Assembly: GCF_001458215.1 (NCBI RefSeq) | Contig: NZ_CYTW01000001.1 | Span: 248,001-312,000 of the forward strand | DNA length: 64,000 nucleotides | Direction: 5' to 3' | DNA from: Shimia thalassica | GTDB lineage: Bacteria > Pseudomonadota > Alphaproteobacteria > Rhodobacterales > Rhodobacteraceae | Shown here: piece by piece, positions 45,182 through 63,099 of the stretch | Layout: each line of letters starts with the position of its first letter | How positions within the stretch are numbered: the first letter of the stretch is position 1 | Notes under the pieces: model-generated | The model's input: only the letters and a program-made list of their open reading frames with translations | What the model was told of the DNA's origin: nothing | Database searches by the model: none | Program-made: the position numbers and the translations under genes

Positions 45182-45361
45182 GTTTTGCCTACTGACCCAA
45201 TTCCAGGTGAACGCTTGTACATTCCAAATCTAATTGAAGATTGCCTCGTCACAGAATTTTGGAGTTCGATTTACTTGGCCGGCAGCGGCTTCGCTTTTTG
45301 GGATGGCATCGATTTGGAATTGGACAAGTCCGAGTTCGAGAAAGTGTACTTGATAGGGTAG
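45182..45361 (+). pseudogene. Gene fragment adjoining the right end of the IS element
   Basis: An open stretch that enters from the IS end and stops at 45361 encodes about 60 codons, including PIPGERLYIPNLIEDC and IYLAGSGFAFWDGIDLELDKSEF. It lacks its own start. It is not a continuation of ParA. The end has a weak resemblance to DUF2442-type proteins (a W/F-D-G-I-D pattern after a glycine stretch), which I would not rely on. Confidence 0.35.
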
Positions 45362-45418
45362 CGACCAATCCGTCTCCATCAAGAGCTTCCCGCGACGGGA
45401 CGCCCAGTGGGCCTCTGG

Positions 45419-46039: not shown

Positions 46040-46151
46040 TTGGCTTTCCTCTTTCTTCGGTCAGTCATCCGCAAAATCCCGAGGTATCCCCCAGACGGTC
46101 TCAACACAATTTAGGTTGGTGCCAATCGAAACAAATCAAGGGGTATCCAAA

Positions 46152-47930
46152 ATGACAGAGAGCACCAACCAAGACCTTTCCGGCCTACTACTCACAACCG
46201 CCGAGGTTGTGAAAACTGCCGGAGCTATGATCCGGGCCGAGTTTCATCGTCCCGCTGGTCCACGGGGCACTTTGCACAAGGCAGTGATAGATAACGAAGT
46301 GGAAGCCTTCTTGAAGGCACAGTTGGTGAGTCTTCATCCTGCAAGCTGGCTGGGTGAAGAAACCGAAAGAACTGAAGTTCACGGGCCTGACACATGGGTT
46401 GTTGACCCGCATGATGGAACAGCCGACTTCATGAAAGGGTTGCGAGGATCCGCAATTTCGGTGGCACTTCTTAGAAACGATGAGCCTGTTCTAGGAGTTG
46501 TATTTGCCCCGACTGCTCCTGATGACAAGGGTGACTTGATCTGCTGGGCAAGAGGTGAAGATCTCACGCGCAACGGTTTGACCATCAAGCCAACGATGGA
46601 TCGGAAACAGCTGATTGTTGGGCTGAACGCAGATGCCGCGGACTATGCTTTTGCGAACCATGTAAACTTAGGGGGAGCTCGCGTAAGGGCTCTTCCCAGT
46701 CCCGCATATCGGCTGGCATTGGCGTCTGTTGGCGAAATTGACGCCGCAATCAGCTTGGTAAATGGCCTTGCCCCCTGGGACATTGCCGGAGGGCATGCTC
46801 TTCTTATCGGTGCTGGCAAAACGCTCACCCAGAGGAATGGCCGGGTAGTCGACTACAAATCGGAAACGTTCAATGGAGTCATTGCGGGGGCGCCTGATAT
46901 CGTAGAAAGGTTGAAATCAGCAAAAATAGAGCCGCATCCCAAATCAAGGCGCACCCCTGCGAGTCCGAAGGTGCGAATACAAATGGCTGATACTCTTGCT
47001 CGAGCGCAGGGTACGTTGCTGGGTCAATTGGCAGGCGATGCCTTGGGATCATTCGTAGAGTTTCAGGATGCGGCCACGATTGCGCACCAGCACCCGGAAG
47101 GCGTCGTTGAGCTTAGCGATGGTGGGACCTGGAACCTGATTGCAGGGCAACCGACCGACGATGGCGAAATGGCCTTGGCACTTGCCCGAAGCCTGTGCGC
47201 ACAGGAGTGTTTCGATACAGAGCACGTAAAGCAGTCATATATTGACTGGCGTCGCTCGAGGCCGTTCGACATCGGGATGACCACTAGTCGGGCTATTTCC
47301 GCGCTAGAGACTGGAAGCGATGTTTCTTTCGATAGCCAAGCCAACGGGGCCTTGATGCGAGCCAGCCCAATCGGTGTTTTTGCACATGGAAATCCGGAAT
47401 TGGCCTCAGAGATTGCTCGAAAGGACGCCCATCTGACGCACCCCAATCGCGTCACCGTGGCGGCAAATTCGGCATTTGCAGCAGCGATCTCGATTGGCAC
47501 CGCCGGAGCTAACGAAGAAGAAATGTGGTCTGCTGCTTACGCCTACTCCGGAGAGAATAGCGGAGGAGATGTGGTTCGGAAGCGCCTCATCGATGCCCGA
47601 ACAAAACGCCCGGCTGAGTATCAGCATCAGATGGGTTGGGTTCTGACCGCCTTTCAAAATGCGTTCTATTGTTTGATGGCTGGGAAATCTCTTCGTGATG
47701 CTGTGGTAAGCACGGTAGCTCAAGGCGGGGACACAGATACGAATGCGGCAATCTGTGGTGCGCTTGTTGGTGCCAGGCAAGGTCGTGATGCTGTTCCATT
47801 GCAATGGCGAAATGCCGTCCTTACGTGCCGGCCAATCGAAGGCAAGGGTATCCGTCACCCCCGGCCAAAAGCCTTTTGGCCCGATGATACGCTGGAGCTT
47901 GCCGAAGCACTTTTGGCTGCCAATCGATGA
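46152..47930 (+). CDS. Inositol-monophosphatase-like / ADP-ribosylglycohydrolase fusion
   Basis: 592 residues from the ATG at 46152 (AAGGGG upstream). Residues 1 to about 260 form an IMPase/CysQ-type lithium-sensitive phosphatase: LGEETER (Glu69-Glu70), VVDPHDGTADF (85-93) and APWDIAGG (Trp209-Asp210) are the three metal/catalytic motifs. Residues from about 278 form an ADP-ribosylglycohydrolase: GQLAGDALGSFVEF (291-304), PTDDGEMALALARSL (334-348), GALMRASPIG and QGGDTDTNAAICGALVGA (524-541) supply the binuclear Mg site. Both halves look active. The substrate may be a phosphorylated ADP-ribose or PAP-like nucleotide; this is inference. It lies between a recombinase-like gene and a small ORF inside the island. 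Confidence 0.88.
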   Translation: MTESTNQDLSGLLLTTAEVVKTAGAMIRAEFHRPAGPRGTLHKAVIDNEVEAFLKAQLVSLHPASWLGEETERTEVHGPDTWVVDPHDGTADFMKGLRGSAISVALLRNDEPVLGVVFAPTAPDDKGDLICWARGEDLTRNGLTIKPTMDRKQLIVGLNADAADYAFANHVNLGGARVRALPSPAYRLALASVGEIDAAISLVNGLAPWDIAGGHALLIGAGKTLTQRNGRVVDYKSETFNGVIAGAPDIVERLKSAKIEPHPKSRRTPASPKVRIQMADTLARAQGTLLGQLAGDALGSFVEFQDAATIAHQHPEGVVELSDGGTWNLIAGQPTDDGEMALALARSLCAQECFDTEHVKQSYIDWRRSRPFDIGMTTSRAISALETGSDVSFDSQANGALMRASPIGVFAHGNPELASEIARKDAHLTHPNRVTVAANSAFAAAISIGTAGANEEEMWSAAYAYSGENSGGDVVRKRLIDARTKRPAEYQHQMGWVLTAFQNAFYCLMAGKSLRDAVVSTVAQGGDTDTNAAICGALVGARQGRDAVPLQWRNAVLTCRPIEGKGIRHPRPKAFWPDDTLELAEALLAANR

Positions 47931-48351: not shown

Positions 48352-48773
48352 GAAAACCCCCAGCCGTGGTCTATTGGTTGAGAAGAAACGAAACACAAAC
48401 TAACGAGCAGGAGCAGAGAATAGTTTAAACTACTTTGGAAACTGTCCAAACATTGGGGGTAGCTCAGTTCGTTACGGAGTAGAGTTTCATGCACAGGTTG
48501 ATATCTGGCCTAGAGTTAATACCTCTGGCGGCGGGTACTTTGTAAACCGGCAAGTCGATTTTTTGGGGTTCGCGTCAGGCACTACACATCCGACGAGTCG
48601 CGGTGTTCTGATTTTGCGGCACCAATTTGATTCTGTTCCCATTTTGTTCTGATCGTCAAGAGTTTGGTTTTAGTTGGGTCGTCAGGGTGTGACAGGTTTT
48701 GACACCCTCAAATGTCAAATCAGGTGAGCGCGTAGTAACAGGCCGCGTCACTACGATTAGAAGAGGGTAACGG
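48352..48773. other. Non-coding region in front of the Wadjet operon
   Basis: Of this stretch, 48352-48640 shows no gene. The part from 48641 to 48773 is the Wadjet promoter block, closely related to 56957-57090: both contain ATTTTGTTC, TCGTCAAG, GACAG, the TTTGACA/TGTCAAA inverted repeat, GGTAACG and then ATGGTTG. AT-rich DNA and an AGTTTAAACT palindrome occur near 48425. Confidence 0.6.
48698..48719. promoter_or_regulatory. Candidate WYL-regulator operator, Wadjet operon
   Basis: TTTGACA (48698-48704) and TGTCAAA (48713-48719) form an inverted repeat with 8 bases between, 54 bp before the jetA start. The site has the same total length (22 bp) as the perfect palindrome at 57014-57035. The left arm contains a TTGACA hexamer that could also be a -35 box, so a bound regulator would block transcription. 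Confidence 0.6.
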
Positions 48774-50180
48774 ATGGTTGCTTCGATATTCGGTTCTTTG
48801 GAGCCAAGTCAGTTCAGGATCTTCAGCACCGAAAACGCAACCTTCTATGCGGACTTGGTCGAATACCTTGCAACCGAGGTGTTTCGCTTTGCGGCGGAAA
48901 CCATTCGCAAGAAACAGGTTCAGCGCGCCATTGAAGACTTCATCCTGGCACGTGAATGGCAAGCCAGCCTCTCCAGCGAAGAAGGTCTCCTAGATGGGCC
49001 GGTACATTACGCGGTCTACCGCCACCTTGTGAAATCCAAGTGGCTGGAGGAAGGCCGGGATGGCCTCAGAACCGTTGTTGACCTCAACAGTGAAGCGCGC
49101 CTTCTGCTTCAAGCATTACTGGACATCAAATCCGGAAAGGTTCGCTCCTTTGGCGGGGAAGTCCTTCAGGTGAAAACCCTGATAGACGCAGTTCGTCGCG
49201 ACCCGGAAAGCACATCAGAGAACTTGACCTGGGCAGGTGCGCACGCTGAGCGCTTCATGACCAATCTACGAGCAATTGTTGGCGCTATGCGCAAGGTCGA
49301 GCAGAGTATGAAGGGTCAGTCCAGTGTATCCGGCATGATGGACGCTTTCTTCCACAACTACATCACCGATAATTACATCGCGGACTTCAGAAAGCTCCGC
49401 GGTGAAAACAGCCCCTACCGGTTTCGCCATGACCTCGTTGAAGATGTACGCGCCATGATGGAAGACGCCCTTCTTATCAACGTGCTTTCCTCGGCCTTTG
49501 TTCGCGAAGGCCGAGCCCCCTCTCTGGAGGAGGCTGAAGACAACATCATCAACTCTCTGAGTACGATTTCAGAGGTCTTCAGCAGTATCGACAGCCACAT
49601 CGATATGATCGAGGCAACCAACTCTCGTATCGAGCGGCGCGTACTCAACATCAATCGCTTCCTTAGCCGCATGGGGGATGACCAGACAGGTCAATTTATC
49701 GATGCCGCCAAGCGTCTGGGGCGGTCGAAGCTTACCAGTAAATGTAAGCTTCCAGTCAGATATGACGTAATGGATGTGCTTCCTCATTATGACCGCGGCT
49801 CGCTGCATAAATCACGGCCACCACGAAAGATCCCGGCGCCGGTCATCGCAAGAAAGCGTATGAAGGATCCAGCCTTAGTGGCCTATGAGGCCGCCAAGCG
49901 TCACTATATTGATCGGACACGGGTCAACCCAGATCGGGTTCGGCAATTCCTTGATGTCAAAATGGGCAAGGAGATTTCTATTCGGGCATCTGACATCAAG
50001 ATTGGCTCTTTGGATGAGTTCTTCATTTTTGAACGCCTGTTGATCATCAAGACGATCTTCCCCGATGACCTTAAAGAAGTAGAGATCAAGCGGCTCCCAA
50101 CTCCACTTCAGAACGAGTGGATTAGTTGTTCCGATTTCGAAATTAAAAAACGCGCCGAAACATTGGAGATTTCACAATGA
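48774..50180 (+). CDS. jetA: Wadjet protein JetA (kleisin/MukF-like)
   Basis: A 468-residue, mostly helical protein starting at the ATG at 48774 (GAGGG upstream). The N-terminus SIFGSLEPSQFRIFSTENATFYADLVEYLA resembles JetA proteins of non-type-I Wadjet (DUF5716-like), which bridge JetC heads as a kleisin. Internal helices such as SISEVFSSIDSHIDMIEATNSRIERR suggest coiled-coil contacts. It is the first of four overlapping genes whose order is exactly Wadjet. The family call rests mainly on this order and on JetC/JetD motifs. Confidence 0.82.
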   Translation: MVASIFGSLEPSQFRIFSTENATFYADLVEYLATEVFRFAAETIRKKQVQRAIEDFILAREWQASLSSEEGLLDGPVHYAVYRHLVKSKWLEEGRDGLRTVVDLNSEARLLLQALLDIKSGKVRSFGGEVLQVKTLIDAVRRDPESTSENLTWAGAHAERFMTNLRAIVGAMRKVEQSMKGQSSVSGMMDAFFHNYITDNYIADFRKLRGENSPYRFRHDLVEDVRAMMEDALLINVLSSAFVREGRAPSLEEAEDNIINSLSTISEVFSSIDSHIDMIEATNSRIERRVLNINRFLSRMGDDQTGQFIDAAKRLGRSKLTSKCKLPVRYDVMDVLPHYDRGSLHKSRPPRKIPAPVIARKRMKDPALVAYEAAKRHYIDRTRVNPDRVRQFLDVKMGKEISIRASDIKIGSLDEFFIFERLLIIKTIFPDDLKEVEIKRLPTPLQNEWISCSDFEIKKRAETLEISQ

Positions 50181-51019
50181 TGATGCTGGATGACTTCGAG
50201 CGCGCTCTCGACCGCGAAATCAAGTACCGCCAACAAGGAGGCGACAATATAACGAAGGATGACGATGACCTAATCGTTGAACAGTTCCAGAAAGCAGCCC
50301 GCCAACTCATTGAGCGGCAGGTTCTACATGCTGATGACCGCCATAAAAGCGTCTACCGTCTAATCTGTCGGCACGAACCCTACTTCGACCGCCTCATGCA
50401 TGGGCTGGGCTACGTCCTCCTGATTGACTCGATCTACGAATACATCATCGTGATGCCGGGCAACGTCGATGGCGCCACACGACGCGGAAAACTTAAAAAA
50501 GACGAAAGCCTCCTTCTTTTGACGTTGCGCATCATGTGGGAAGAAAGCTCCCGCGACGGTGAAATGGATGATCTTGGTCGCATCCTGATCGATACCGACT
50601 CCCTGCTTGATCGCCTGACCACACTGGGTGGCGGAAACACCCCGAGTAAATCCCGCCTCAAGGAAATGATGGATCTTTGGCGAACCAAGGGGTTTGTCCG
50701 GATTGGCGAGGAAGATCGTGAAGAGGAGATCATCCCGGTCACGATTATGCCGGCAATCAAACATCTGGTTACACCTGACCTCGTGAAGGAGATCGAGATC
50801 TTCCTGGATGCCGAGGACCCTGAAAGCGATGTCTTCGTAAACATCGAGAAGAACCGCGTCGCGGCTGAAGATGCTGTTCGACAGAAAGCTCTGAACACCT
50901 CAAAAAAAGAAGAGGTCCTAGAGACTAACTTCTTCGACGACCTGCATGCCGACATTCCCCAAGAAGAAGACACCCAGATGAGCAACTCCAAGGTTGCCGA
51001 GGAGATGCCTGATGTTTGA
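50177..51019 (+). CDS. jetB: Wadjet protein JetB (DUF4194, MukE-like)
   Basis: 280 residues, KITE/MukE-like. Winged-helix core segments include YRLICRHEPYFDRLMHGLGYVLLIDSIYEYI and SRLKEMMDLWRTKGFVRIG, as in DUF4194 proteins, followed by an acidic tail. It overlaps jetA by four bases and jetC by eight. JetB binds the kleisin JetA in the Wadjet SMC complex. Confidence 0.85.
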   Translation: MMMLDDFERALDREIKYRQQGGDNITKDDDDLIVEQFQKAARQLIERQVLHADDRHKSVYRLICRHEPYFDRLMHGLGYVLLIDSIYEYIIVMPGNVDGATRRGKLKKDESLLLLTLRIMWEESSRDGEMDDLGRILIDTDSLLDRLTTLGGGNTPSKSRLKEMMDLWRTKGFVRIGEEDREEEIIPVTIMPAIKHLVTPDLVKEIEIFLDAEDPESDVFVNIEKNRVAAEDAVRQKALNTSKKEEVLETNFFDDLHADIPQEEDTQMSNSKVAEEMPDV

Positions 51020-54000
51020 GCTCAAGCGTATCAGCGTGATGAACTGGAACCTCCTCGATCTGGAGGATATCGAAATTGACGGCATCACAGCCATCATCGG
51101 AATGATGGGATCCGGCAAATCGACACTTCTGGATGCCATTCAAACCGTGAAGACGGGTAATCAGGTATCAAAGCTGAGTCTCAACCGGGCCGCCAGTTCG
51201 ATTAAATCGACCCGCTCGGTCAAGGAATACTGCCTGGGTGTTACAGAAGACACCATCCGTCTTGGTGTGACTAGGGATGCCTGTCACAGCATGCTTGTCC
51301 TGAGCTATCGAGATGACAAACTGAATGCGGAATGCGCGGTCGGCATCACGATGTTTGCCGATAAGGATGAACCTCGTGAGCACACCACCTGTCGCTTCAT
51401 CGCAGAGGGCACGATGTTCTCCTTTGAGGAGTTTGCAGACCGGGAAGCAGATGGCACGCTTGTCGTTGATAGCCCGGAGATTATCCTGGAGCGCGTTCGC
51501 GAAAAATCAGGTCGTGGATACTCGGTGCACAACAACTCTGCCAAAGGCTTTATCGAGAACTACTTGCGCGCGATGCGCCCTAAAGGCGCCACTCCCAATG
51601 CGGATGACTACATCCGTCGTTTCCGCAATGCCATCGCGTTTCAGGAAATCAAGGATCCGACAGATTTTGTGCGGACTTTCGTTCTGGATGAGGATCCCAT
51701 CCAAACTGATCGACTGCGTTCCAACCTTCAAACCTGGGATGAGATCTCAGATTCACTGGAGACACTGAAAAAGAAGATCGGTGACGCGCGCTCTTTGCGT
51801 GCTGCCTACGCAAGCGAAGCAGAGTCGATTTTCACAACCCAGGAGAACGCCTATCAGGCAGCCTGGTCCAAAGCGCAGATCTCCGAAATCAAAAGCGAAG
51901 AAGCCAGAGGTAAAGCGCGCCAGGCCGATGTTGACCTGGCTGATCTCTCTCAAGAGCGGTCTCGTGTTGACCAAAAAATTGAACGTGAAGAGGCCGCTCG
52001 AGAGGCAAAAAGAGAGCAGCACATGGCCTCCAGCTACACTCAATCGCAGGCGGTTGCAGAAGCCAGGATCGCCAGTCAGGAAAAGGATGTCAAAATCTCC
52101 GCTGGCAAGCTCAAGGGAATTCTGGAGCAGGGAGCATCGTTGCGTAACATCGATGATTTGAAGCGCTTTCTGCCTGCATCGGCGGGCTGTATGAAGATTG
52201 CAGCTGAGCGTCTGGAGCAAATTCGACGAGAATTTACCGGCTCTGGAACCCTACCTGTAGATACTGCTGAGATCTCCAAGCTCATTACGACCGTAAGTGA
52301 CACTGAGAGAGTTGTTGCCTCGCTGAACGCTCAATACGAAGACATGGTTGTTGAGCAGCGAAAGACTGAAGATCAACGTTCCGAAAAACTGCGCCAACTG
52401 CGGTCTCGTGAGCAGGGTGGAAAGGGCATGGATCAACAGGTTCAAGACTTCATCGAGTATCTTGTTGAGGAAGGTATCGTTGCTGAAGCCCTACCTATGA
52501 TGGTGGAGGTCACTCCAGGCATGGAAGACTGGGTACGAGCACTTGAGACACGGCTTGGAGCCTTCAAGCAGGCAGTCTATGTCGATCCGAAAAACTTTGA
52601 CCAGGCTTATCAAATTCTTCGGAACCGCAAACAGGCTACCGGCCGCGGGTATGAGCGCGAACACCGCAACTGGAAGGTTCGCCTGATCAACACGCAAAAG
52701 CTCGCACGCGGCAAGGGGTTACGCAATGCAGCATCCAATGCCATCGTTTCGATCCTTGAGACAGACAATGACCTGATCAGAAAGTTCTTGGACTCGCAGT
52801 TCGGCGGGACAGTAATGGTCGATACGCTCGCCGAGCTGAAGCAGCAGTCGGACGCAATCATGAAGGACGGATCCCAAAGCCAAGGGTTCTCTGTTCGCGT
52901 GAACCGGATGGGTTCTCCTATTCTGGGCAGGGTTGCCCAAGAAAGCCTCATGTATGAACTCCAGACACAGGTTCAGGATCTGACATCGCAAATCGAACGT
53001 CGCAAGACTGACATCCAAAGACTGAAGAGTGGGGCCTCGATTTTCCATTCAGTTGGTCAACTCGATCCAGGGGCCGCCGGGGCTTTTATTGGTGAAATCG
53101 AAGAGGGCATCAAGACCCTCAAAAACCTCGAAAATGAGCGTGATGCAGAGCTTTCAGATGATGAGCGTGAGCTGATTGCTGACATCAAAACACATGGCGC
53201 GAACATCAATCAGCTCAAGATATACAGAGATGGAGATCTCGAGGATCGCAAGAATAAGCTGATCAGAGAGCAGGCGAGGGCGAGCGAAAAGGTCCGTGAG
53301 GAAGACAGTGCTCGTGCGCGGCATCAGGCTGAGTGCGATAACCTTGCAGAGGTCGACAAGGGCCCGGAAAATATGCGGTGGCGGAATGCCCTCTATCATA
53401 TGGACCACCCTGCAAGGGGTCGCTCCATCGCGGCGCTGACCGCTCGCCTTGGTCAAATCTCCAGGCAGGATGAAGCCTGGCACATCGACAACATTGAGAG
53501 GCTTCGCAAGGAAAAACGTGAAGAGCTTGATGCCAATAGTGAAGCTGCGGGGCGCCGAGCTCGCCGGATGCGCGGCATTGCCACCTATTTGTCTGAATAT
53601 GGCGAGGACATCGAACTTGCAAAGAAGTCTGCGCCCGACATTCTGAACTGGCTGGTGTCCCACGTTCTCCACATGGAAGACAATGAACTTCTAAAGTATC
53701 AGACTCAGATCGAAGAGTTTCGGAAGATTACCCGTCGGGAGGTGCGCGAGGTTTTCATGACCAAGCTCAATGACAACCTCAAGATCGCCCTTTCTGAAAT
53801 GCGCAAGCTGAACAAGCGTATCCGGCGCCACAAGTTCGAAGGCATGACCTATGTCTTTGACTGGAAGATCGATCCGACCATGAAACCCCTCTACCAGATG
53901 GCAAAGCGGGTCTCGGACGAGGCAGACAAGGCGGGAACACTCCTCATGGAGGGTGGAGACGAAGTTCTGAACGAGGCAGTTGAGATCATTCGTGAGATCT

Positions 54001-54614
54001 TCAAATCTGAAGAAGGCGCCGCCAAATTCGAGGACTATCGACAGTACTTCGAATTTGAACTGGTGATGACCCGAGACGAGGTCACTGATGCCGATATCGA
54101 CAATCAAGGTGTTGATGGCCTGAAGACAGACATCGCCGTGACAGGCAACCTGACGGATCGGATCGGCAAAGGCTCAGGTGGGCAGAAGCAAACACCCTAC
54201 TATGTCGCTATCGCTGCATCTATGGCCGCGGCCTATTATCCAAATGCGCGACCGGGCGAAAGCATGGGCATGGGACTCGTCTGCTTTGATGAGGCCTTCA
54301 ATAAGCTTGATATCCGCAGCACGCAGGAGCTCATTCGCCTCTACCGCGACCTGGATCTGCAAATTTTGATTGCCGCTCCAGAAGAGAAGCGGACCAGTTT
54401 CATGGAAGTGGCCGATACCATCGTCACTATCTCCAAAGCCCCAGGCGCCCCGGAACTCTTCATTGATGTGGAGAGGATCGGCGAAAAGACAAAAGACGAG
54501 CTGCGCAAAGCCAACCCAGAACACGTTGGAATCGCTGGCTTCCGTCAGAACGTGCTATCTGGCTACATCGGCCAGATGGCACCCAACAATGCTTCAACGG
54601 AGCCTGCTGAATGA
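51012..54614 (+). CDS. jetC: Wadjet SMC-like ATPase JetC (MukB/SbcC-like)
   Basis: 1200 residues from the ATG at 51012 (GAGGAG seven bases upstream). The N-terminal Walker A is IGMMGSGKSTLLDAI (30-41). A long coiled coil (about 250-1000, for example AREAKREQHMASSYTQSQAVAEARIASQEKDV) is interrupted by a hinge-like region near 480-640. The C-terminal ABC signature GKGSGGQKQTPYYVAIAASMA and Walker B LVCFDEAFNKLD complete the head. All ATPase motifs are intact. In Wadjet, JetABC extrudes DNA loops and senses small circular DNA. Confidence 0.93.
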   Translation: MFELKRISVMNWNLLDLEDIEIDGITAIIGMMGSGKSTLLDAIQTVKTGNQVSKLSLNRAASSIKSTRSVKEYCLGVTEDTIRLGVTRDACHSMLVLSYRDDKLNAECAVGITMFADKDEPREHTTCRFIAEGTMFSFEEFADREADGTLVVDSPEIILERVREKSGRGYSVHNNSAKGFIENYLRAMRPKGATPNADDYIRRFRNAIAFQEIKDPTDFVRTFVLDEDPIQTDRLRSNLQTWDEISDSLETLKKKIGDARSLRAAYASEAESIFTTQENAYQAAWSKAQISEIKSEEARGKARQADVDLADLSQERSRVDQKIEREEAAREAKREQHMASSYTQSQAVAEARIASQEKDVKISAGKLKGILEQGASLRNIDDLKRFLPASAGCMKIAAERLEQIRREFTGSGTLPVDTAEISKLITTVSDTERVVASLNAQYEDMVVEQRKTEDQRSEKLRQLRSREQGGKGMDQQVQDFIEYLVEEGIVAEALPMMVEVTPGMEDWVRALETRLGAFKQAVYVDPKNFDQAYQILRNRKQATGRGYEREHRNWKVRLINTQKLARGKGLRNAASNAIVSILETDNDLIRKFLDSQFGGTVMVDTLAELKQQSDAIMKDGSQSQGFSVRVNRMGSPILGRVAQESLMYELQTQVQDLTSQIERRKTDIQRLKSGASIFHSVGQLDPGAAGAFIGEIEEGIKTLKNLENERDAELSDDERELIADIKTHGANINQLKIYRDGDLEDRKNKLIREQARASEKVREEDSARARHQAECDNLAEVDKGPENMRWRNALYHMDHPARGRSIAALTARLGQISRQDEAWHIDNIERLRKEKREELDANSEAAGRRARRMRGIATYLSEYGEDIELAKKSAPDILNWLVSHVLHMEDNELLKYQTQIEEFRKITRREVREVFMTKLNDNLKIALSEMRKLNKRIRRHKFEGMTYVFDWKIDPTMKPLYQMAKRVSDEADKAGTLLMEGGDEVLNEAVEIIREIFKSEEGAAKFEDYRQYFEFELVMTRDEVTDADIDNQGVDGLKTDIAVTGNLTDRIGKGSGGQKQTPYYVAIAASMAAAYYPNARPGESMGMGLVCFDEAFNKLDIRSTQELIRLYRDLDLQILIAAPEEKRTSFMEVADTIVTISKAPGAPELFIDVERIGEKTKDELRKANPEHVGIAGFRQNVLSGYIGQMAPNNASTEPAE

Positions 54615-55786
54615 GCGCGAGAAAGCGACATCAGGTTGCAGGAGAGTTGTTCGCCAAACTTCTTGACCGTTACGAGGCGGCAGAGCGGGATGGGCGACTA
54701 GGACCAAAGATTAGAGAGTTCGTATTCCAGGCGTTCCGAGATCCCGCCAAGCAAAAGCGGTTTCAGGAAGCTGTTCAGCACGCCCAACGCATCGGGGCTG
54801 TCCATGTCGAAATGGGCAATGGTGACCTCTCTCACTTGATGAAATGTGTAGTCCTGGCTGATGCCGATGTGCTCTACAAAATGACTGGTCGCCAACCAAA
54901 GGCAGGCAAGCTGACAGGCGCCAAGGGGGCTATGGAGAGCTTCTTAGGCACTTTGCCTGATAAACATCGAAGACATGCCACACAGGCCATGGAGAGACTT
55001 CTGGAGCATTGGGAACTTAACAAGCGCCCACACCGTTTGAGCGAAGATAACCTTCCGCCCGTCAAAGAATACCTCAAAGCCTACGGAGCCGCGCTCTCTA
55101 AAGATGTGACAGATGGTCGAGACCTGCGAACATACTCCAGGGTGGAGTGTGGTGACTCCAAGTTGATCGAGCGTCAACTAACACGGATCATGGCTGAACT
55201 CCGGGCAATCGAGTTTTATGGAGCCGATGTTGAAGACGACATGATCCGATCAGACTTAGGGCTGGAGAAGTTTCCCCATCTTGTTCAGTTCACGGCTGAC
55301 ATTCCATTTTCCCTGGCGCATTTTGAAAAAAAATTACACATGGGAATCCATCCCTCCATCATCGAAACGCTTGAAGTCACCCCGCTGCGTGCTCTCGTAA
55401 CCATTGAAAACTACGCAAGCTTCAATCGCTATATCGCAGAGGCTATGGCTCCAAATACGGCCGTCCTGTACACAGGTGGCTGGCCGGGCTCAGGTGAGAA
55501 ACAACTGATCGCCAAACTTTCGGAGCATGTTAGTCAAGGCGTATTTCATTGGGGTGACATCGACATGGCTGGCGCCGCCATTGCGGATGCAGTGGCACGC
55601 AGTTCCAAGGCGCCCGTTTTCCTACATCAAATGTCACCTGATCTGGCGCGTGAGCATGGTCAGCCTCGCATCGCCAAGGCAATCTCTGTTTCGAGGAATT
55701 CTCCAGCAAGTGAACTGATTTTATGGCTTTCTTGCGAAGGTGCCTTCACCTTAGAGCAGGAAGAGCTGGACCCAGTGCCGGTCTGA
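54611..55786 (+). CDS. jetD: Wadjet nuclease JetD (TOPRIM, DUF2220-like)
   Basis: 391 residues. The N-terminal helical domain binds the SMC complex in known systems. The C-terminal TOPRIM domain shows the catalytic glutamate in ALVTIENYASFN (Glu266) and the DxD pair in FHWGDIDMAGA (Asp316, Asp318), so a functional metal-dependent nuclease is expected. It overlaps jetC by four bases. JetD cleaves plasmid DNA once JetABC has extruded it. Confidence 0.92.
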   Translation: MSARKRHQVAGELFAKLLDRYEAAERDGRLGPKIREFVFQAFRDPAKQKRFQEAVQHAQRIGAVHVEMGNGDLSHLMKCVVLADADVLYKMTGRQPKAGKLTGAKGAMESFLGTLPDKHRRHATQAMERLLEHWELNKRPHRLSEDNLPPVKEYLKAYGAALSKDVTDGRDLRTYSRVECGDSKLIERQLTRIMAELRAIEFYGADVEDDMIRSDLGLEKFPHLVQFTADIPFSLAHFEKKLHMGIHPSIIETLEVTPLRALVTIENYASFNRYIAEAMAPNTAVLYTGGWPGSGEKQLIAKLSEHVSQGVFHWGDIDMAGAAIADAVARSSKAPVFLHQMSPDLAREHGQPRIAKAISVSRNSPASELILWLSCEGAFTLEQEELDPVPV

Positions 55787-55849
55787 AACGCAAATTACGC
55801 TGATCTTCGCACGGCATAATTGCGCGCAAAACACTCGATCCAAAATCTG

Positions 55850-55926
55850 GTTGCATTGCCGGCCTTTAAGGCGAAAAACAACTTGCAATTCAATTAGGGG
55901 CTGTCTTTCAGTATAGTTGCATTGCC
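55850..55926. repeat. Direct repeat GTTGCATTGCC in front of the WYL regulator gene
   Basis: The 11-mer GTTGCATTGCC occurs at 55850-55860 and again at 55916-55926, 66 bp apart, in the 164-bp gap between jetD and the regulator gene. Repeats in a regulator's own promoter may serve autoregulation. They do not match the 22-bp inverted repeat found before the two operons. Confidence 0.4.
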
Positions 55927-55950
55927 CAGTTTTTCGCGGGCGTAGTACCA

Positions 55951-56946
55951 ATGGGGGCGAGGCAAATGTCTTTTGAGAAGGCGCGAGACATCCTGCGATT
56001 GGCTGACATGGCTATGTCGCGACATATGGGTGTCAGCCTGAGAGACATTGAAGAAGAATTTGGTGTCGCAAGGCGTACAGCACAGAGAATGACGCAAGCG
56101 CTGCATGAGATTTTCGGCGATAGCGTATCTGTTGAAGATTCCGATTCTGACATGATCCGACGATGGAAGATGAAGTCGACGGTTCTGGCCGGGTTGCATC
56201 TGAATGGAGCGGAGGAATTGGAGGCAATTGAAGTTGCTCTGGCTCGCCTCAATGAACCCGGCGACGTAAGGCAAAGACAGGCTTTGCAGGCGTTGCGGGA
56301 CCGGCTTTTGGCGGCGCTACCGTCCACAAAGGCACGAATAGCGGAGATAGATGCAGAAACAGCTCTAGAAGCCTATGGTATGGCTGCGCGGCCGGGGCCT
56401 GTTGCACGTGCAGATCGCGGTGTTGTTGAGGCGATTGCAGAGGCGATCCGAGGCTTCAACGTGATGCGCATCGTCTACGGTCAGGAAGTACGGCTAGTGG
56501 AGCCTTATGGTGTTCTTCTGGGCGCGCGCCGTTATCTTGTGGCCCGGCAACCAGCCAAAGGACAGAACTTACGCCATTTTCGGCTGGATCGGATCGAAAG
56601 TGCTGAGGTGACGGAAGGCTGGTTCGAGCGGTCTCCGGATTTCGATCTCTCGAGTTATGCGGAGGCTGCGTTTGGCTCTTTTCACAACCCCGATCAAGTT
56701 CGCGACGTGGTCTGGCTTTTTAGTGAAGCAGCAGCTGACCGAGCTGAGAGCTGGCAATTTCACCCGAAACAGGTCGCCAAACGGCTGAGCGATGGTCGAC
56801 TCGAAGTGCGGTTTCGAGCAGGGGGATGGCTCGAAATGACATGGCACCTCTACAAGTGGGGGGATGATGTCGAGGTTGTCGCACCAAAGGAGTTACGAGA
56901 TCTTGTGCATGTAGTGCGCCGTTCTGATTTCGAGGCGCTACCATAA
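55951..56946 (+). CDS. WYL-domain transcriptional regulator (BrxR/CapW-like)
   Basis: 331 residues; a second ATG at 55966 is an alternative start. The N-terminal HTH (FEKARDILRLADMAMSRHMGVSLRDIEEEFGVARRTAQRMTQAL) is followed by a WYL domain (about 140-215: MRIVYGQEVRLVEPYGVLLGARRYLVARQP, then LRHFRLDRIESAEVTEGWF) and a C-terminal WCX part. WYL proteins of the BrxR/CapW type bind palindromes in front of defence operons and repress them until damage or infection. This one is encoded between jetD and the AddBA-like operon, downstream of one candidate operator and upstream of the other. Confidence 0.9.
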   Translation: MGARQMSFEKARDILRLADMAMSRHMGVSLRDIEEEFGVARRTAQRMTQALHEIFGDSVSVEDSDSDMIRRWKMKSTVLAGLHLNGAEELEAIEVALARLNEPGDVRQRQALQALRDRLLAALPSTKARIAEIDAETALEAYGMAARPGPVARADRGVVEAIAEAIRGFNVMRIVYGQEVRLVEPYGVLLGARRYLVARQPAKGQNLRHFRLDRIESAEVTEGWFERSPDFDLSSYAEAAFGSFHNPDQVRDVVWLFSEAAADRAESWQFHPKQVAKRLSDGRLEVRFRAGGWLEMTWHLYKWGDDVEVVAPKELRDLVHVVRRSDFEALP

Positions 56947-57013
56947 GTTTGTTTCTATTTTGTTCCGCTCGTCAAGTTTTGAGTTTGGAATTGGCCGCAG
57001 GGATATGACAGAT

Positions 57014-57035
57014 TTTGACACCCCTGGGTGTCAAA
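57014..57035. promoter_or_regulatory. Perfect 22-bp palindrome, candidate WYL operator before the SbcD/AddBA operon
   Basis: TTTGACACCC and GGGTGTCAAA are exact complements separated by CT. The site lies 55 bp before the start codon at 57091, almost the same distance as in front of jetA. The flanking 133 bp are also related to the jetA promoter block. Confidence 0.7.
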
Positions 57036-57090
57036 TAAGTACGGTGCTTAGGGGCAGGCTTAGTCCATTCGATTCGATGGGGGTAACGTG

Positions 57091-57318
57091 ATGGTTGGTT
57101 TTAAATTTGTTCATACGTCAGATTTGCACTTGGGAAACGGGTTCGGAACGATAACGGAGGAGTTGCGTGGCCGGCTTATTGAGGCTCGTCATGGAGTGGT
57201 GATGCGTTTGGTGGAAGTAGCTCGAGGCCATGGCGCACAACGCATTATGGCTTTTACGGGCGTGCCTGTTACCTCTTTGGCGAGTGCCGGCAGAGATCAA
57301 AAAGGGGCGAGCCAATAG
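57091..57318 (+). pseudogene. Truncated SbcD-like metallophosphoesterase
   Basis: 75 codons start MVGFKFVHTSDLHLGNGFG. This is the first metal motif (DxH) of an SbcD/Mre11-type nuclease, and the next 35 residues are also family-like (EELRGRLIEARHGVVMRLVEVARGHGAQRI). The protein then loses similarity and stops. Motifs GDxxD, GNHD and the later histidines are missing, so it cannot be an active nuclease (the family is about 350-420 residues). In the +1 frame from about 57242 there is a different short peptide ending PAEIKKGRANRVMRIE with a stop at 57336, perhaps the C-terminus of a lost neighbour. A deletion joining the two is the simplest explanation. Confidence 0.7.
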
Positions 57319-57358
57319 GGTAATGCGGATTGAATGAAAACAGAAATTTGGGGTAATC

Positions 57359-59899
57359 ATGACATTTGAGTGGTCGAATTTTCAAACTCAACACCCATTA
57401 ACCGGGGCGTGGCGGACTCTTACACCTGACCTTTTGGCTGAGGCCTATTTAGTGCCCAAAAGGTGTGAGCCGGATTGGGATAGAGCGCTTTCAAAACCAG
57501 ACGCACCGTGGGCCGCAAGCTATGCGAAAATTCCCGAACAAGTTCGGCCGGTTGTAGAGAGCGCGTATCAAACTCTTTTGTCTGCGACACACGACGCCGA
57601 TTTGGAAAATCTAAATCTGGGCAAGCTGCCTCCCTCCCGCGCTCGCAGCCACATCGAAGCCCTGCGGCAAATCGGCACCGACCTAGGAACCCTCCCGTCG
57701 GGTTTCTCGACAGTGCGCCACATTTTAAGTGGTGGCACCTCACTTGAAACTTTCCCCATGTGCCCGCCGCCCCCAGATGGTTTTGCAACTCCGCTGGAGT
57801 GCGCGCTTCACAAAACACTCTCGGAGCGCTTTGGCACAGCACCCTCAAGACCTTTGGTAGAGGCGCTTGCAACGCCTGGCACAGCCCTCCGGCATATTCA
57901 GGACAACCTCACTCTCTCGACTTCCCCTGCCATCCAAGACCTCACAACTCGCTTTTTAACGGTTAGAGACCGCGCCTCAGAGGCTGACTTGGCAGCTGCA
58001 ATGGTGCGAAGGCTCTTGGATGACAATGTATCCCTTCAGGACATCTCTCTATTGGTGCCTGATGCGAGTTATCCAACGATGTTTTTGCAAACCTCGTTTG
58101 AAGCAAACGGCATTCCTATTTCCGGGCAGACCGAGGCGGCATCACGCGACCTTGAAACAGAAGCTTTGTGGTTGCTTGTTCAAGCTGCCCAACCGGCACC
58201 CCCTCCAATGGTCCTTGCATCCCTCTGCATATCTCCTTTGATGCCTTGGTCGGTCTCCGAAGGACGAAAGTTCGCAAGATCCATAATCGAGTATGGCGGC
58301 AAAACCGCACCGGAGAGCCTGAAGACTGTGATTGGTCAACGCCCGGCATCGTATCGCAGCTTGCTTGCCCGCCTTTCAGGTTTCTTTGATGTTGCGCCCG
58401 CTCTCGACGGAGCGAAAAAGAGACTGGGCGCGCTATGCAATTCGAAACGGAACACGAATTTCGACATTGAAGACTTGTTGAGAGATTTGAAACCCCACCC
58501 TTCGCCTCAATCAAATGCGCAAAGGATGGTCGAGGCTGTCAACATCTGGTTCGGAGACAGGGAACCAAGGAAGCCCACGCGACATCTCATTGTTTTGGGT
58601 TTCTCTGGGGCATCCTACCCGGCAAACGTCGGAACTAGTCCATTTTTCTTGGACAGCGAATTGCGGCTGATTGAAGAGACAACTGGTTTGCGCATCCTGA
58701 CTCGCAGCGAGCGTTTGCATCGCAACCTCGCGCGGTTTTTGCGTCACCTTAGAACCACCTCAGACAATGTGTTGTTTGTTATGCCACAGCGTGATCTGGA
58801 TGGGAAAAAAAGGCCTCAAGCACCTGCTTTCTCGCTTCTCAAACGTGCCCTCGTACCTGCATCGAACGGCAGTTTGGAGACACGTTTGGGAACGGTGCCA
58901 CTGGAGGCGTGGCCATGCCGCGCGTCCCTATCAGATCCAAAGCCGGCACAGCCTGTCGCCTTGCCAAAGGACGGCCTTTTACACATGGGTCGGGACGTTC
59001 TTCGGACCCGAAAGGACGACAATGGGGTTATGAAGCGCCAATCGCCGAGTCGGCTTGAAACCATGTTGGTAAGTCCACTTGTTTGGGTGATGAATGAAGC
59101 GGGTGCCTCTCAAGTCGATTGGTCACCGTCCAAAATGGATGTTTTGGTTCAAGGTAGCTTGTTTCATGCTGTTCTTGAGCTCTGCTTCCCCGCTGGAGAA
59201 CCTATCCCTGATGAGAGTGCTATACGAGCCCGTTTCGACGAGTCCTTTGATAAAGCTATGCTGCGAGAGGCGCCTTTCCTTCAAGAGCCCACTTGGAAAG
59301 TTGAAGCAGCCAGTCATCGGGCCGATGCCCTTAAAATCGTTCTGCATTGGCGCGAGCGACTGGAGAGCTTGAAAGCGAATATCTTGGCAAACGAGCAGTT
59401 CCTCGAAGGTTCTGCTCTGGGACTCCGGCTCAATGGTTTCGCTGACAGCCTCATTGAACTATCAGACAAACAGGTCATGGTCGTCGATTTCAAAGCGTCG
59501 AAATCCGACGGTCGAAGGGAGCGGATGGAAAAAGGATGGGACCTGCAAGTCGCTCTCTATCAGCACATGATCGCAGGCGCCGAGAATGAAGCAACCCAAC
59601 AACTGAATGATCGTCAAACCGATCTGGCCATGGCATATCACCTTTTAAGAGACGGTGTGACGCTTTCGCATGGCGTTGCGTCACCCGTGCCAGGGCTGGA
59701 AGCGGTCGATGCTGATATATCGATCAAAGCTCTGGAAAAGCTCACCCATACAATCGCGCAACTTGGCGGTGGCACGATTCAGCTTAGCAGAGTCTCTGAC
59801 GCTGAAACTTTCAAAAAGGAAAGCGGGATCGAGCCATACGCCCTAAAAGACAATTCTGTCGCGCTGGCATTGTCTCTCATCGATGAGGGTGAGGATTGA
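57359..59899 (+). CDS. AddB-like PD-(D/E)XK nuclease protein
   Basis: 846 residues. The middle resembles the inactivated helicase fold of AddB/RecC-type proteins (LIVLGFSGASYPAN, ITRSERLHRNLARFLRHL-type segments). The C-terminal RecB-like nuclease domain is complete: GSLFHAVLELCFP (His603), LNGFADSLIEL (Asp696), VVDFKAS (Asp710, Lys712) and QVALYQH (Gln735). SPSRLETMLVSPLVWVM precedes the domain as in AddB. It starts 22 bp after the +1-frame stop described for the SbcD remnant. With the next gene it should form a helicase-nuclease acting on DNA ends. It is distinct from, and probably additional to, the housekeeping AddAB. Confidence 0.82.
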   Translation: MTFEWSNFQTQHPLTGAWRTLTPDLLAEAYLVPKRCEPDWDRALSKPDAPWAASYAKIPEQVRPVVESAYQTLLSATHDADLENLNLGKLPPSRARSHIEALRQIGTDLGTLPSGFSTVRHILSGGTSLETFPMCPPPPDGFATPLECALHKTLSERFGTAPSRPLVEALATPGTALRHIQDNLTLSTSPAIQDLTTRFLTVRDRASEADLAAAMVRRLLDDNVSLQDISLLVPDASYPTMFLQTSFEANGIPISGQTEAASRDLETEALWLLVQAAQPAPPPMVLASLCISPLMPWSVSEGRKFARSIIEYGGKTAPESLKTVIGQRPASYRSLLARLSGFFDVAPALDGAKKRLGALCNSKRNTNFDIEDLLRDLKPHPSPQSNAQRMVEAVNIWFGDREPRKPTRHLIVLGFSGASYPANVGTSPFFLDSELRLIEETTGLRILTRSERLHRNLARFLRHLRTTSDNVLFVMPQRDLDGKKRPQAPAFSLLKRALVPASNGSLETRLGTVPLEAWPCRASLSDPKPAQPVALPKDGLLHMGRDVLRTRKDDNGVMKRQSPSRLETMLVSPLVWVMNEAGASQVDWSPSKMDVLVQGSLFHAVLELCFPAGEPIPDESAIRARFDESFDKAMLREAPFLQEPTWKVEAASHRADALKIVLHWRERLESLKANILANEQFLEGSALGLRLNGFADSLIELSDKQVMVVDFKASKSDGRRERMEKGWDLQVALYQHMIAGAENEATQQLNDRQTDLAMAYHLLRDGVTLSHGVASPVPGLEAVDADISIKALEKLTHTIAQLGGGTIQLSRVSDAETFKKESGIEPYALKDNSVALALSLIDEGED

Positions 59900-59901
59900 C
59901 G

Positions 59902-62900
59902 ATGGCGAAAGACTTCAAGATCATTCCCGCAAATGCTGGCGCAGGAAAGACCTACTTCCTGACGGAAACGCTGGCGGACTGGCTTTCGTCAAAAGAGGTG
60001 CGTCCGCAGAAAGTCCTGGCGGTCACATATACTGAAGCCGCCGCAGCCGAGCTACGCGAGCGTGTGAGAGCCCGTTTGCTCTCCGAAGGTATGGTCGACG
60101 AGACGCTTCTGCTCGACACAGCTTACATTTCGACCATCCACGGGTTGGGTCAACGACTGCTGAGCGAAAATGCATTTGCGTTTGGCGGATCTCCGTCTCC
60201 ACGCTTGATTGAAGAGGCGGAAGCGGATTTCCTTATTCGACGCGCCTTGGCGTCTTCTGATGCGTTTAGCGAGATTTATGCCGATTTGGCCCGCTACGGT
60301 TTCTCATATAAGCCTCAGGCTGGGTCCGCCGAAGACCAATTTCGCTCACTTGTGCGCAAGACAATCGATCAGCTGCGTGCACTGGGAACCTCCGGTCAAC
60401 GCTTGGGCATAGCTGCCGAGTCCGTTTTAGAACTGAAAGACATCTATGGAGCCGTAGAAATTGATGGTTCGCAGATAGAAGAAACTCTGCACGATGCCGT
60501 ATGTCGGTTGCTTGACGAATTCCCGCAATCATTGGAACAGTCCCACGGCAGCAGTGCCGCTGCTAAGAAGGCCTTTCGAGCCAACTACGACGCCCTTAGC
60601 AGGGCTCGCAAGTGTGATGACCTGAGCCGGAACTGGAAGCTCTGGAAGGAGCTGCGAGCTCTGCGCCTCTCCGTCAGAGGCAACCCCACGCCGCAAGGCT
60701 ATGATACGCTCGCACAAGCTGTGATGGTTGCAGCAGAGGGTATCTTGCGTCACCCTGGCCCTTTGGCTGACGCTTCGCGCCTCCTCGATATTGTCGTGAT
60801 GGGCAGTCAAAGCATCATCGACGATTACTCAGTCGCCAAACAGAAAATTGGTGCGGTGGATTATGCCGACATGGTGTCCGGCGCGGAAAGGCTCTTGCGG
60901 GAGAACCCCGAGGTGCTGTCGGCGGTAGTTGGGGAAGTCGGCTGCGTTGTAATCGACGAATTCCAAGACACGAATCCTGTGCAATTTGCGTTCCTTTGGA
61001 TGCTCGCTCAGCGAGCACCAAAAACCATTCTTGTTGGTGACGCAAAGCAATCAATCATGGGGTTCCAAGGCGCTGACGTGCGCCTCACAGAGGCACTTGT
61101 GACCCAGAACGCTGAAGCCGTCGAACGCCTGCCCAAAAACTGGCGTAGCAGCTCCGAACTCGTGCGGTTCTTCAACGCATTTTCCAAAGGCCTCTTTGGA
61201 GAAGAGTATCATCCTGTTGTTGCCTCTCGTTCCCAAGAGGACATCCAATTTCTTGAAATTCTGTCCTGCCCGAACACGCGTGGATCTCGAAAGGACAAGG
61301 CTCGTCCTTATCACAACGTCGCCATGCGGATTGATGCAATGCTCAGTGATTGTACTCTTATTGTGGATCCGAAAAACGAAAATTTGCGGCCCGCTATCGA
61401 AGAAGACATCGCGGTTCTCTGTACCTCTCACGCACAGATGGCCAACTACGCCAATGCACTACGGGCTCTAGGTATAGCAGTACAGATGGAACAAGCCGGC
61501 TGGCACGATAGCCCGGTGATCCAGCTAGCTCGTCACGCCATCGCGTTCGCAGCTGACCCCTCTGACGGTTACGCTGCACTAGGATGGTTGACCCTCGGGC
61601 CAACTCGGATGGATGTGGAAATCGCACTTCAGCAACTGACCGAAGGCACACTTTGCTCATCTTCGGCTCTGGAACCCTTGAGGACGCTGAGTGCAGAAGC
61701 GTCTTCGCAAACAACAGAAACCTTTGTAGCCAAAGTTCTAAACGCGACGGCTCTAATGGCTTGGTGCAAGGATCAGCCCAACTGCGAGCGGCTTGTCGCA
61801 GATCTTTTGCGCCTCCATCAGGAAGCGAAGATTTTTTCTGACCTGGACTGCGAGTTGCTTTCCGCCGAAGGTTTTTTCGGCAAATCTCCGTCCGTATTTC
61901 TAGGATGGCTTCTGGACCGCAAAGATCAGGCAGGCGCAAACGCGCGCCCCAGTCCTGACTCGGGCACTGGAAAAGGTGTCGAGCTCGTCACCTGGTTCAG
62001 CGCGAAAGGTCGAGAATGGCCCATCGTTTTCGTTTGTCAGTTGGACGAGAAGTTTGCCGCTCGCGCAGGTGAGATGAAATCGGACTTCTCCAACTTTGCA
62101 GACTTATCCAATGTGCTCGCGACAGCGCGACTTTCATACTTTCCAAAACTGGACATCAAAGAAAAAACGGAGGCATTCAAGGATCACCATCGCCCAAAAG
62201 ATGAAATGACAGCAAGACGTCAGCTCTATGTCGCGATGACACGCGCAAGAGATCGATTGGTTCTGGAATGGCCAGAGGCATCGATTGGCAAAACGTCCGC
62301 TGGAGAAGACCGTTCTTTCGTAGATCTCTTTTTGGAGGAAGCTGACATCGAGATTCAGATGAGCGAAATGCGCGTGGGAACTGAACGCTTCTCAATTGGT
62401 CAGACCATTGGCGTCAAAGTGAAACCAGAGATTTTCGATTCTCCCGTCGAGGCCGCGGTGGAAACCCAAAGACGCTTTGACGCTTCAGGTGCAGCACTTC
62501 CTACACCAAACACACCATGGCGCCAGCAACCTTCCGGACTTGAGCAAGAGTTCGAGACCATGAAAGTGGAAGTGGAGGACTTCGAAATCGCAAAGGGAGT
62601 GAGGGGTCTTGAATTTGAAAGCGCAACCGAGCGCGGAACCGCCGCACATTTAGCCCTTCGAGCTTTTCTGCAAGAGCCAGACATTGATCCTCAAAGGGTG
62701 TCAGCCGCATCTAAGATACCGCTAGACAAAGTCGTCGAGTTGCAGGCTTACGCAAGTGAATTGGCTGCCTGGCTGAAGAACCGAGGATATGAGCGTATCC
62801 ATCTTGAACTACCTCTTCAGTTTGTTGCTTCGAGCGGTGCGGAGATCAACGCGATAGTCGACTGCCTCGCAGAAGGCCCCGATGGATATCTGATTTTAGA

Positions 62901-63099
62901 CCATAAAACAGGCGCTGTGGCTGAAACCGGCAAACGGTTCGCACACTATCTTCAGCAACTTGAAGCCTACGCGAAGTTGGTCGGCGCGATTTTCCAGCAG
63001 AAACCAGTCACGAAGTTGGCGATCAATTGGGTTGACGAGGGAAAAGTTAGCCTCGCTGCCGCATCTGCTGAAGCGAAGACTAGAAGTATCTCGTTCTAA
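59902..63099 (+). CDS. AddA-like UvrD-family helicase with PD-(D/E)XK nuclease domain
   Basis: 1065 residues from the ATG at 59902; a TTG at 59896 overlapping the addB-like stop is an alternative. SF1A helicase motifs are all visible: Walker A NAGAGKTYFLTETL (Lys16), VLAVTYTEAAAAELRERV, YISTIHGLGQRLL, VVIDEFQDTNPVQF, LVGDAKQSIMGFQGAD, LPKNWRSSSELVRFF, VTWFSAKGREWPIVFVC and LYVAMTRARDRLVLE. The last 200 residues add a nuclease domain (RGTAAHLALRAFL, AIVDCL, LILDHKTG, QLEAYAKLV). With two nuclease sites and one helicase the pair matches AddAB architecture. Confidence 0.9.
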   Translation: MAKDFKIIPANAGAGKTYFLTETLADWLSSKEVRPQKVLAVTYTEAAAAELRERVRARLLSEGMVDETLLLDTAYISTIHGLGQRLLSENAFAFGGSPSPRLIEEAEADFLIRRALASSDAFSEIYADLARYGFSYKPQAGSAEDQFRSLVRKTIDQLRALGTSGQRLGIAAESVLELKDIYGAVEIDGSQIEETLHDAVCRLLDEFPQSLEQSHGSSAAAKKAFRANYDALSRARKCDDLSRNWKLWKELRALRLSVRGNPTPQGYDTLAQAVMVAAEGILRHPGPLADASRLLDIVVMGSQSIIDDYSVAKQKIGAVDYADMVSGAERLLRENPEVLSAVVGEVGCVVIDEFQDTNPVQFAFLWMLAQRAPKTILVGDAKQSIMGFQGADVRLTEALVTQNAEAVERLPKNWRSSSELVRFFNAFSKGLFGEEYHPVVASRSQEDIQFLEILSCPNTRGSRKDKARPYHNVAMRIDAMLSDCTLIVDPKNENLRPAIEEDIAVLCTSHAQMANYANALRALGIAVQMEQAGWHDSPVIQLARHAIAFAADPSDGYAALGWLTLGPTRMDVEIALQQLTEGTLCSSSALEPLRTLSAEASSQTTETFVAKVLNATALMAWCKDQPNCERLVADLLRLHQEAKIFSDLDCELLSAEGFFGKSPSVFLGWLLDRKDQAGANARPSPDSGTGKGVELVTWFSAKGREWPIVFVCQLDEKFAARAGEMKSDFSNFADLSNVLATARLSYFPKLDIKEKTEAFKDHHRPKDEMTARRQLYVAMTRARDRLVLEWPEASIGKTSAGEDRSFVDLFLEEADIEIQMSEMRVGTERFSIGQTIGVKVKPEIFDSPVEAAVETQRRFDASGAALPTPNTPWRQQPSGLEQEFETMKVEVEDFEIAKGVRGLEFESATERGTAAHLALRAFLQEPDIDPQRVSAASKIPLDKVVELQAYASELAAWLKNRGYERIHLELPLQFVASSGAEINAIVDCLAEGPDGYLILDHKTGAVAETGKRFAHYLQQLEAYAKLVGAIFQQKPVTKLAINWVDEGKVSLAAASAEAKTRSISF

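Follow-up and report, generated by a model that had tools for sequence, protein, structure and literature searches.

The regulator DriD of Caulobacter crescentus is a WYL-domain activator that is triggered by single-stranded DNA (ssDNA), and the paper describing it (PMC12340889) gives a consensus, ATACGAC(X)7GTCGTAT, for a box that overlaps the -35 element, a probe that contains GACAG-N3-CTGTC, and the targets didA, bapE, recJ and dnaG. WYL proteins can also act as repressors: BrxR binds 11-bp inverted repeats with a 5-bp spacer, and repressors of its family co-localise with many defence systems, Wadjet included (PMC9122601). Here we set against these systems a locus in a 64,000-nucleotide stretch of the Shimia thalassica genome (contig NZ_CYTW01000001.1, positions 248,001 to 312,000; hereafter the window) that brings together a type I Wadjet operon (jetABCD), the gene of a DriD-like WYL regulator and the operon of an AddBA-like helicase-nuclease. 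We argue that these two operons and an intact sbcDC operon on contig C4 of the same genome probably form one regulon of three promoters, controlled by a single transcription factor of the DriD-type WYL kind. Our literature search found no account of transcriptional control of Wadjet, an absence that is weak evidence, as most subscription papers lay outside its reach.

All genes of the locus lie on the plus strand, in the order jetA, jetB, jetC, jetD, WYL regulator, sbcD fragment, addB-like and addA-like. A reading of this DNA made from the sequence alone had already proposed this arrangement, and its coordinates and assignments held up against the open reading frames (ORFs) and their PADLOC and Pfam matches (Table 1). 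Each of the four Jet proteins fits the PADLOC type I Wadjet model and their genes stand in the canonical order, with AAA_29 and SbcC_Walker_B, the ATPase motifs of JetC, and JetD_C, the C-terminal domain of JetD, all above the Pfam cut-offs; among PDB sequences, no relative of JetD was found by sequence. Membership of type I Wadjet predicts that jetABCD restricts small circular plasmids. The locus thus shares with described type I systems all four proteins and their order, but differs from them in its WYL/DriD-like operator and in the WYL gene that follows jetD.

The two operons open with related promoter blocks of about 145 nt, one upstream of jetA and the other between the WYL gene and the sbcD fragment. 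They are identical in 105 of 149 alignment columns, and their local alignment scores 72, whereas none of 1000 mononucleotide shuffles scored above 25, which bears out the relatedness that the sequence-only reading had noticed. A third, more diverged block precedes the intact sbcD-sbcC operon on contig C4; pairwise, it scores barely above or below shuffled sequence (31 against the jetA block, best shuffle 28; 27 against the second block, best shuffle 32). The independent test of specificity came from a sequence-only model, R2, built from the WYL-sbcD intergenic regions of four other genera and containing nothing from the window's genome. Over the whole 4.35 Mb genome, R2 scored the jetA block at 53.5 bits, the C4 sbcDC block at 42.8 bits and the addBA block at 42.2 bits, and the next match at 14.3 bits, so that the C4 block, doubtful in pairwise alignment, is clear by the profile. 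A second profile, R1, had the three own-genome sites as its training set and hence provides no independent test there.

The operator motif also tracks a particular clade of WYL regulators in other genomes. We built a 30-nt operator matrix from the three own-genome sites and four sites of relatives, and scanned 121 loci (2.39 Mb) from which all loci that had contributed a site were left out. At a threshold of 18 bits, 18 of the 19 matches fell inside the 26 loci that encode a WYL protein of at least 44% identity, and 14 of them, in 10 loci, lay no more than 600 bp from the WYL gene. At 17 bits there were 20 matches, again 14 of them near WYL, whereas 40 column-permuted matrices gave a mean of 1.05 matches and a maximum of 5, none of them near WYL. 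When R1, a longer model than this matrix, was run at E ≤5 on 87 AddBA loci, all six matches (E 0.0006 to 0.038) came from five loci (L009, L011, L032, L033 and L035), each of which carries a WYL gene of the clade, a gene present in 9 of 91 AddBA loci overall. In Maliponia aquimaris (L032) and Puniceibacterium confluentis (L033) the motif lies between the clade WYL gene and addB (R1 E 0.026 and 0.0034), and in Ruegeria denitrificans (L035) WYL, sbcD, sbcC, another gene, addB and addA follow each other in one direction. The specificity of R2 for three sites and the co-occurrence of motif and WYL gene therefore support a shared regulon well. The earlier suggestion of one regulator for both operons is thereby plausible; it is strengthened by these results and extended to a third operon, sbcDC.

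Separately, four operator matches (L009:12706, L011:758, L167:7432 and L166:8874) lie 85-512 bp from clade WYL genes and away from AddBA or SbcDC promoters, that of L009 between the WYL gene and a TIR-domain gene, hinting at further regulated defence genes.

Across sites the operator reads tGACAGnttTTGaCACCC, often in the layout GAC-N7-G(T/A)C. We compiled 29 sites (three from the own genome, four from relatives and, from loci that encode a WYL protein of at least 44% identity, the matches exceeding 15 bits), of which 7 are GAC-N7-GTC and 13 GAC-N7-GAC, giving 20 of 29 a layout like that of a DriD box; both window operators are of the GAC-N7-GAC kind. Between these two operators GACAG, TTTTGACACCC and TGTCAAAT are unchanged, and the five bases between the last two differ. 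By our own reading of the alignment, the operator spans TTGACA, a candidate -35 hexamer. We had also considered the palindrome TTTGACA-N8-TGTCAAA as the operator. Without mismatches it occurs at only two places in the genome, the two window blocks, and with up to two mismatches 22 times, against 9 for a reversed control pattern. This candidate was dropped: the part conserved across relatives is GACAGnTTTTGACACCC, and the N8 palindrome is therefore probably peculiar to the two window promoters. A second conserved element, GTT-N5-T-N2-GTT-N7-TC-N-A, begins about 55 nt upstream of the operator, at window positions 48635-48661 and 56951-56977, and also occurs in relatives.

The regulator aligns with DriD along nearly its whole length (residues 5-319), and its best PDB matches are 8tp8 and 9pfq, the former of which we take to be DriD as well. 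Entry 9pfq is a DriD complex (PMC12340889). The segment that we take as the recognition helix reads RRTAQRM in the window protein and RRTAERM in the solved one. The Pfam match of the N-terminal helix-turn-helix (HTH) is weak (HTH_IclR, E 0.087), and the HTH call rests on the full-length DriD alignment. The likeness to DriD thus comprises a full-length match, a closely similar HTH segment and the GAC-N7-G(T/A)C layout. The two differ in their targets, which here are predicted to be Wadjet, the AddBA-like pair and SbcDC instead of didA, bapE, recJ and dnaG, and in the right half-site, which is GTC in the DriD box and mostly GAC here; a response to ssDNA would be expected here by analogy. As in BrxR-controlled islands, sites for a WYL regulator stand at more than one promoter of a defence island, but unlike that of BrxR the site here is DriD-like, and the nearest WYL relatives precede end-processing genes.

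Table 1. Features of the Wadjet, WYL and AddBA-like locus (positions in the window)
Feature	Position	Strand	Description
Promoter block 1, upstream of jetA	48629..48773	+	105/149 identical columns with block 2; R2 53.5 bits, E 1e-13, whole genome
DriD-like operator 1	48691..48720	+	GACAG-N5-GAC core and downstream TGTCAAAT half-site; starts 83 nt before the jetA ATG
jetA	48774..50180	+	468 aa; PADLOC JetA1 3e-175; Pfam JetA
jetB	50177..51019	+	280 aa; PADLOC JetB1 2e-39
jetC, SMC-like ATPase	51012..54614	+	PADLOC JetC1 2e-197; ORF opens at TTG 50994
jetD, nuclease subunit	54611..55786	+	391 aa; PADLOC JetD1 1e-72; Pfam JetD_C 2e-10
WYL regulator, DriD-like	55951..56946	+	331 aa; WYL and WCX above Pfam cut-offs; PDB 8tp8 and 9pfq, both E 1.2e-46
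Promoter block 2, between WYL and sbcD relic	56945..57090	+	shuffle-tested alignment with block 1; R2 42.2 bits, E 3e-10
DriD-like operator 2	57007..57036	+	starts 84 nt before the relic ATG
sbcD relic	57091..57318	+	about 52 homologous codons, then another frame and a stop; 75-codon ORF
addB-like	57359..59899	+	846 aa, C-terminal PD-(D/E)XK nuclease; AlphaFold mean predicted local distance difference test score 88; top 5 Foldseek matches are AddB chains
addA-like	59902..63099	+	UvrD-type helicase and PD-(D/E)XK nuclease; ORF opens at TTG 59896

From the in-frame ATGs, the starts given for jetC (51012) and addA (59902) are more likely than the TTG codons at which their ORFs open.

The sbcD fragment suggests where the second promoter block came from. 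When its first 53 residues were used as the query, 52 aligned with the intact sbcD product of contig C4 (G000:C4:316590) at 67% identity, and the identity to an SbcD-like protein of Ruegeria denitrificans was 41%; the whole 75-aa ORF matched no Pfam family at E 0.1. Given this 67% identity, block 2 arrived with an sbcD gene, and the fragment is probably not a working part but a relic that marks the origin of the promoter. SbcD and SbcC form an Mre11/Rad50-like pair that processes DNA ends. For each of the regulator's four nearest relatives in the family scan (65, 58, 56 and 55% identity), sbcD-sbcC comes after the WYL gene and the same block separates them; the ancestral cassette was likely WYL-operator-sbcD-sbcC. 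In such a history, Wadjet and AddBA would have been drawn, in this lineage, into a WYL-controlled regulon of the sbcDC type. Next to the regulator the sbcDC body would have disappeared except for a stub of about 52 sbcD codons, and AddBA now lies behind the stub's operator; a second copy of the block would have come to stand before jetABCD, and a third, diverged, before the intact sbcDC operon elsewhere in the genome.

By analogy with DriD, ssDNA that arises through damage or end resection, or that enters by conjugation, would bind the WYL domain, and the regulator, as an activator, would then sit on the GACAG-N5-GAC box over the -35-like hexamer. Wadjet, AddBA and SbcDC would be raised together, so that small circles would be cut, degraded from their ends and their ends processed. 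A specific form of this proposal, which we offer only tentatively, is an anti-plasmid regulon in which a DriD-type sensor of conjugative ssDNA, or of ssDNA resected from JetD cuts, drives all three in a feed-forward loop, each cut raising the signal for further cutting and degradation. From its sequence, then, the locus predicts Wadjet under a DriD-type ssDNA-sensing activator, which would link plasmid defence to a non-SOS damage response, and for a clade of WYL regulators it supplies an operator that can be tested.

Several observations weigh against this proposal. Wadjet was seen under a DriD-like operator in one genome only. Neither window operator has GTC in its right half, and with GAC there both are imperfect DriD boxes; 9 of the 29 sites fit neither GAC-N7-GTC nor GAC-N7-GAC. 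In the R1 scan of 295 family genomes, 5 have a strong match to the full-length block and 3 more a weak one, although 44 of the 295 carry this WYL protein (E 1e-30). Among the weak matches, that of G062 sits before an sbcD start and was kept; those of G161 and of the congener G210, with no sbcDC in the stretch fetched, were taken as chance. In 20 fetched loci of the WYL clade, sbcDC lay within the stretch in 9 and not in the other 11, which, like the narrow spread of the full block, fits poorly with a simple ancestral story; AddB lay in none of the 20. The columns of the upstream GTT-N5-T-N2-GTT-N7-TC-N-A element are invariant in all seven aligned promoter blocks, and the proposal offers no explanation for it. 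Immediately before the WYL gene of the window, the position weight matrix scan found no operator above 12 bits, and this gene may be read through from jetD. The genome also has a housekeeping AddAB, so AddBA would be dispensable for ordinary end degradation. Finally, WYL proteins can also repress, as BrxR does (PMC9122601), so the regulator is only a putative activator.

The pairing of Wadjet with AddBA is confined to this genome in our sample. JetA homologues were found in 1 of 295 genomes of the family, 6 of 385 of the class and 1 of 25 of the genus, the window's own genome being a positive each time, and jetA had no relative in viral contigs. A tblastn search (E 1e-4) of the 208 fetched loci, with copies and stretches of the own genome counted, gave an AddB match in 110, and a Jet match as well in only five of these, all of them own-genome stretches. 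Conversely, 11 other alphaproteobacterial Wadjet loci (five in genomes and six on plasmids, 16-23 kb each) had no WYL, AddBA or SbcDC match. As far as sampled, the pairing is therefore lineage-specific, and a conserved, recurrent Wadjet-AddBA composite system is not supported. The sequence-only reading had proposed a possible new composite system and had named independent distribution of the modules as a finding that would speak against it; the co-occurrence search it suggested gave that outcome, with JetA in 1 and an AddB-like protein in 7 of the 295 family genomes and no Jet gene near AddBA elsewhere.

The alternatives and our preferred reading are not mutually exclusive. A true two-part defence system, in which Wadjet linearises plasmids, AddBA destroys the product and selection keeps both together, would account for the shared pair of operators; with no Jet match at the fetched AddBA loci outside the own genome, no AddBA at the 11 other Wadjet loci and JetA in only 1 of 25 genus genomes, we regard it as very unlikely. 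The same independence of JetA and AddB suits an island of two independent defence modules, whose promoters would be alike through inheritance from an old sbcD promoter, by insertion or duplication, and in which control by the regulator would no longer be meaningful. The homology does run over about 145 nt, beyond the operator alone, and a type I Zorya set directly downstream has no site above 12 bits, so the island is mixed. Decay of control, however, sits poorly with two operators that keep GACAG, TTTTGACACCC and TGTCAAAT while the bases between the last two have changed, with an intact and adjacent regulator frame, and with sites elsewhere that co-occur with this WYL clade, and we consider independent modules unlikely.

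A further alternative accepts the shared regulon and differs from our preferred reading only in direction: the WYL protein would be a BrxR-like repressor that holds costly nucleases off until relieved by a phage or plasmid signal. The operator covers the possible -35 hexamer, and BrxR-family repressors are found with defence systems that include Wadjet (PMC9122601). Yet the closest solved full-length relative, DriD, is an activator, the motif layout is DriD-like, and DriD boxes themselves overlap -35 elements (PMC12340889); repression is in our view rather unlikely.

Pfam places PDDEXK_1 in the AddB-like protein (E 9e-18) and UvrD helicase and PDDEXK_1 domains in the AddA-like one. We read D696, D710, K712 and Q730 of the AddB-like protein, which are invariant in 31 sequences, as its nuclease motif. 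It resembles AddAB, RecBCD and AdnAB in its predicted AddB-like fold, with AddB as the top five PDB matches, and in its helicase- and nuclease-bearing AddA-like partner. Both proteins fall far below the NCBIfam equivalog cut-offs (24.6 against 486.5 bits for AddB, 136.8 against 860.75 bits for AddA), and the pair is therefore classed as AddAB-like only, whereas the genome's housekeeping pair, encoded on contig C4, passes both (1264.7 bits for AddA and 944.8 bits for AddB). The AddBA-like pair further differs from AddAB in the small size of its AddB-like protein (846 aa) and in its patchy, partly plasmid-borne distribution: the AddB-like protein was found in 7 of 295 family genomes and 10 plasmid records, with one relative in viral contigs. 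No PADLOC 2023 model matched it at E 0.01, and only general helicase models were among the best 25 of 53 PADLOC 2023 matches of the AddA-like protein.

We examined 91 AddBA loci, in 88 of which an AddB ORF was called. The scan of genome contigs kept the best 80 of 116 relatives, loci that were 100% identical over 9.6-19.5 kb (L025, L026, L028, L029 and L106) were dropped as copies, as were own-genome or short stretches (L001-L008 and L019-L024), and some genomes contribute more than one locus. AddA was called in 81 of the 88, as a lower count than might be present because greedy ORF calling masks some genes, AddA among them, and a WYL gene of the same cluster in 47. AddBA pairs share loci with ZacABC (Azaca) clusters in 12 of the 88 and with BrxC-PglX-PglZ-BrxL (BREX) clusters in 8, cluster identities that come from one representative each; neither system was found among the scanned genes of the window locus. 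In Roseovarius (L031), AddBA lies between gyrB and an MmgE/PrpD gene without adjoining defence neighbours. These loci bring to light an AddBA-like pair that turns up repeatedly next to genes of Azaca, BREX and WYL regulators, and it looks like a patchy accessory helicase-nuclease that joins many defence neighbourhoods.

In 22 of the 88 loci AddBA is followed by a complete three-gene set (L011:19735-25293 and 21 further loci) that encodes an unknown protein of about 400 aa, a protein of about 600 aa in which we read PLD-like HAK and GSGN motifs, and a helicase of at least 850 aa. We considered whether this set (X6-Y7-Z5) is Azaca, given weak PADLOC matches to ZacB and ZacC, but rejected this, as profile-profile comparison gave probabilities of 0.2% for X with ZacA and 3.4% for Y with ZacB; the set is possibly an unnamed system that resembles Azaca in layout only.

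The surroundings of the locus contain further defence and mobile-element genes. A complete type I Zorya set (ZorA1, B1, C1 and D1) lies directly 3′ of addA (L120:3767-11391, equivalent to G000:C1 311766-319390), with zorA opening at window position 63766, and no operator match above 12 bits was found near it within the stretch fetched. Just upstream of jetA, window positions 46116-47930 encode a 604-aa fusion of inositol-monophosphatase-like and ADP-ribosylglycohydrolase domains; an ADP-ribosylglycohydrolase cluster, typed from one member, occurs in 25 of the 88 AddBA loci. Beside the island, at 43477-46039, are a ParA-like gene, an integrase-core transposase gene and a recombinase fragment, and further away, at 10590-15164, the window encodes a 1524-aa RTX-repeat protein with a Hint domain.

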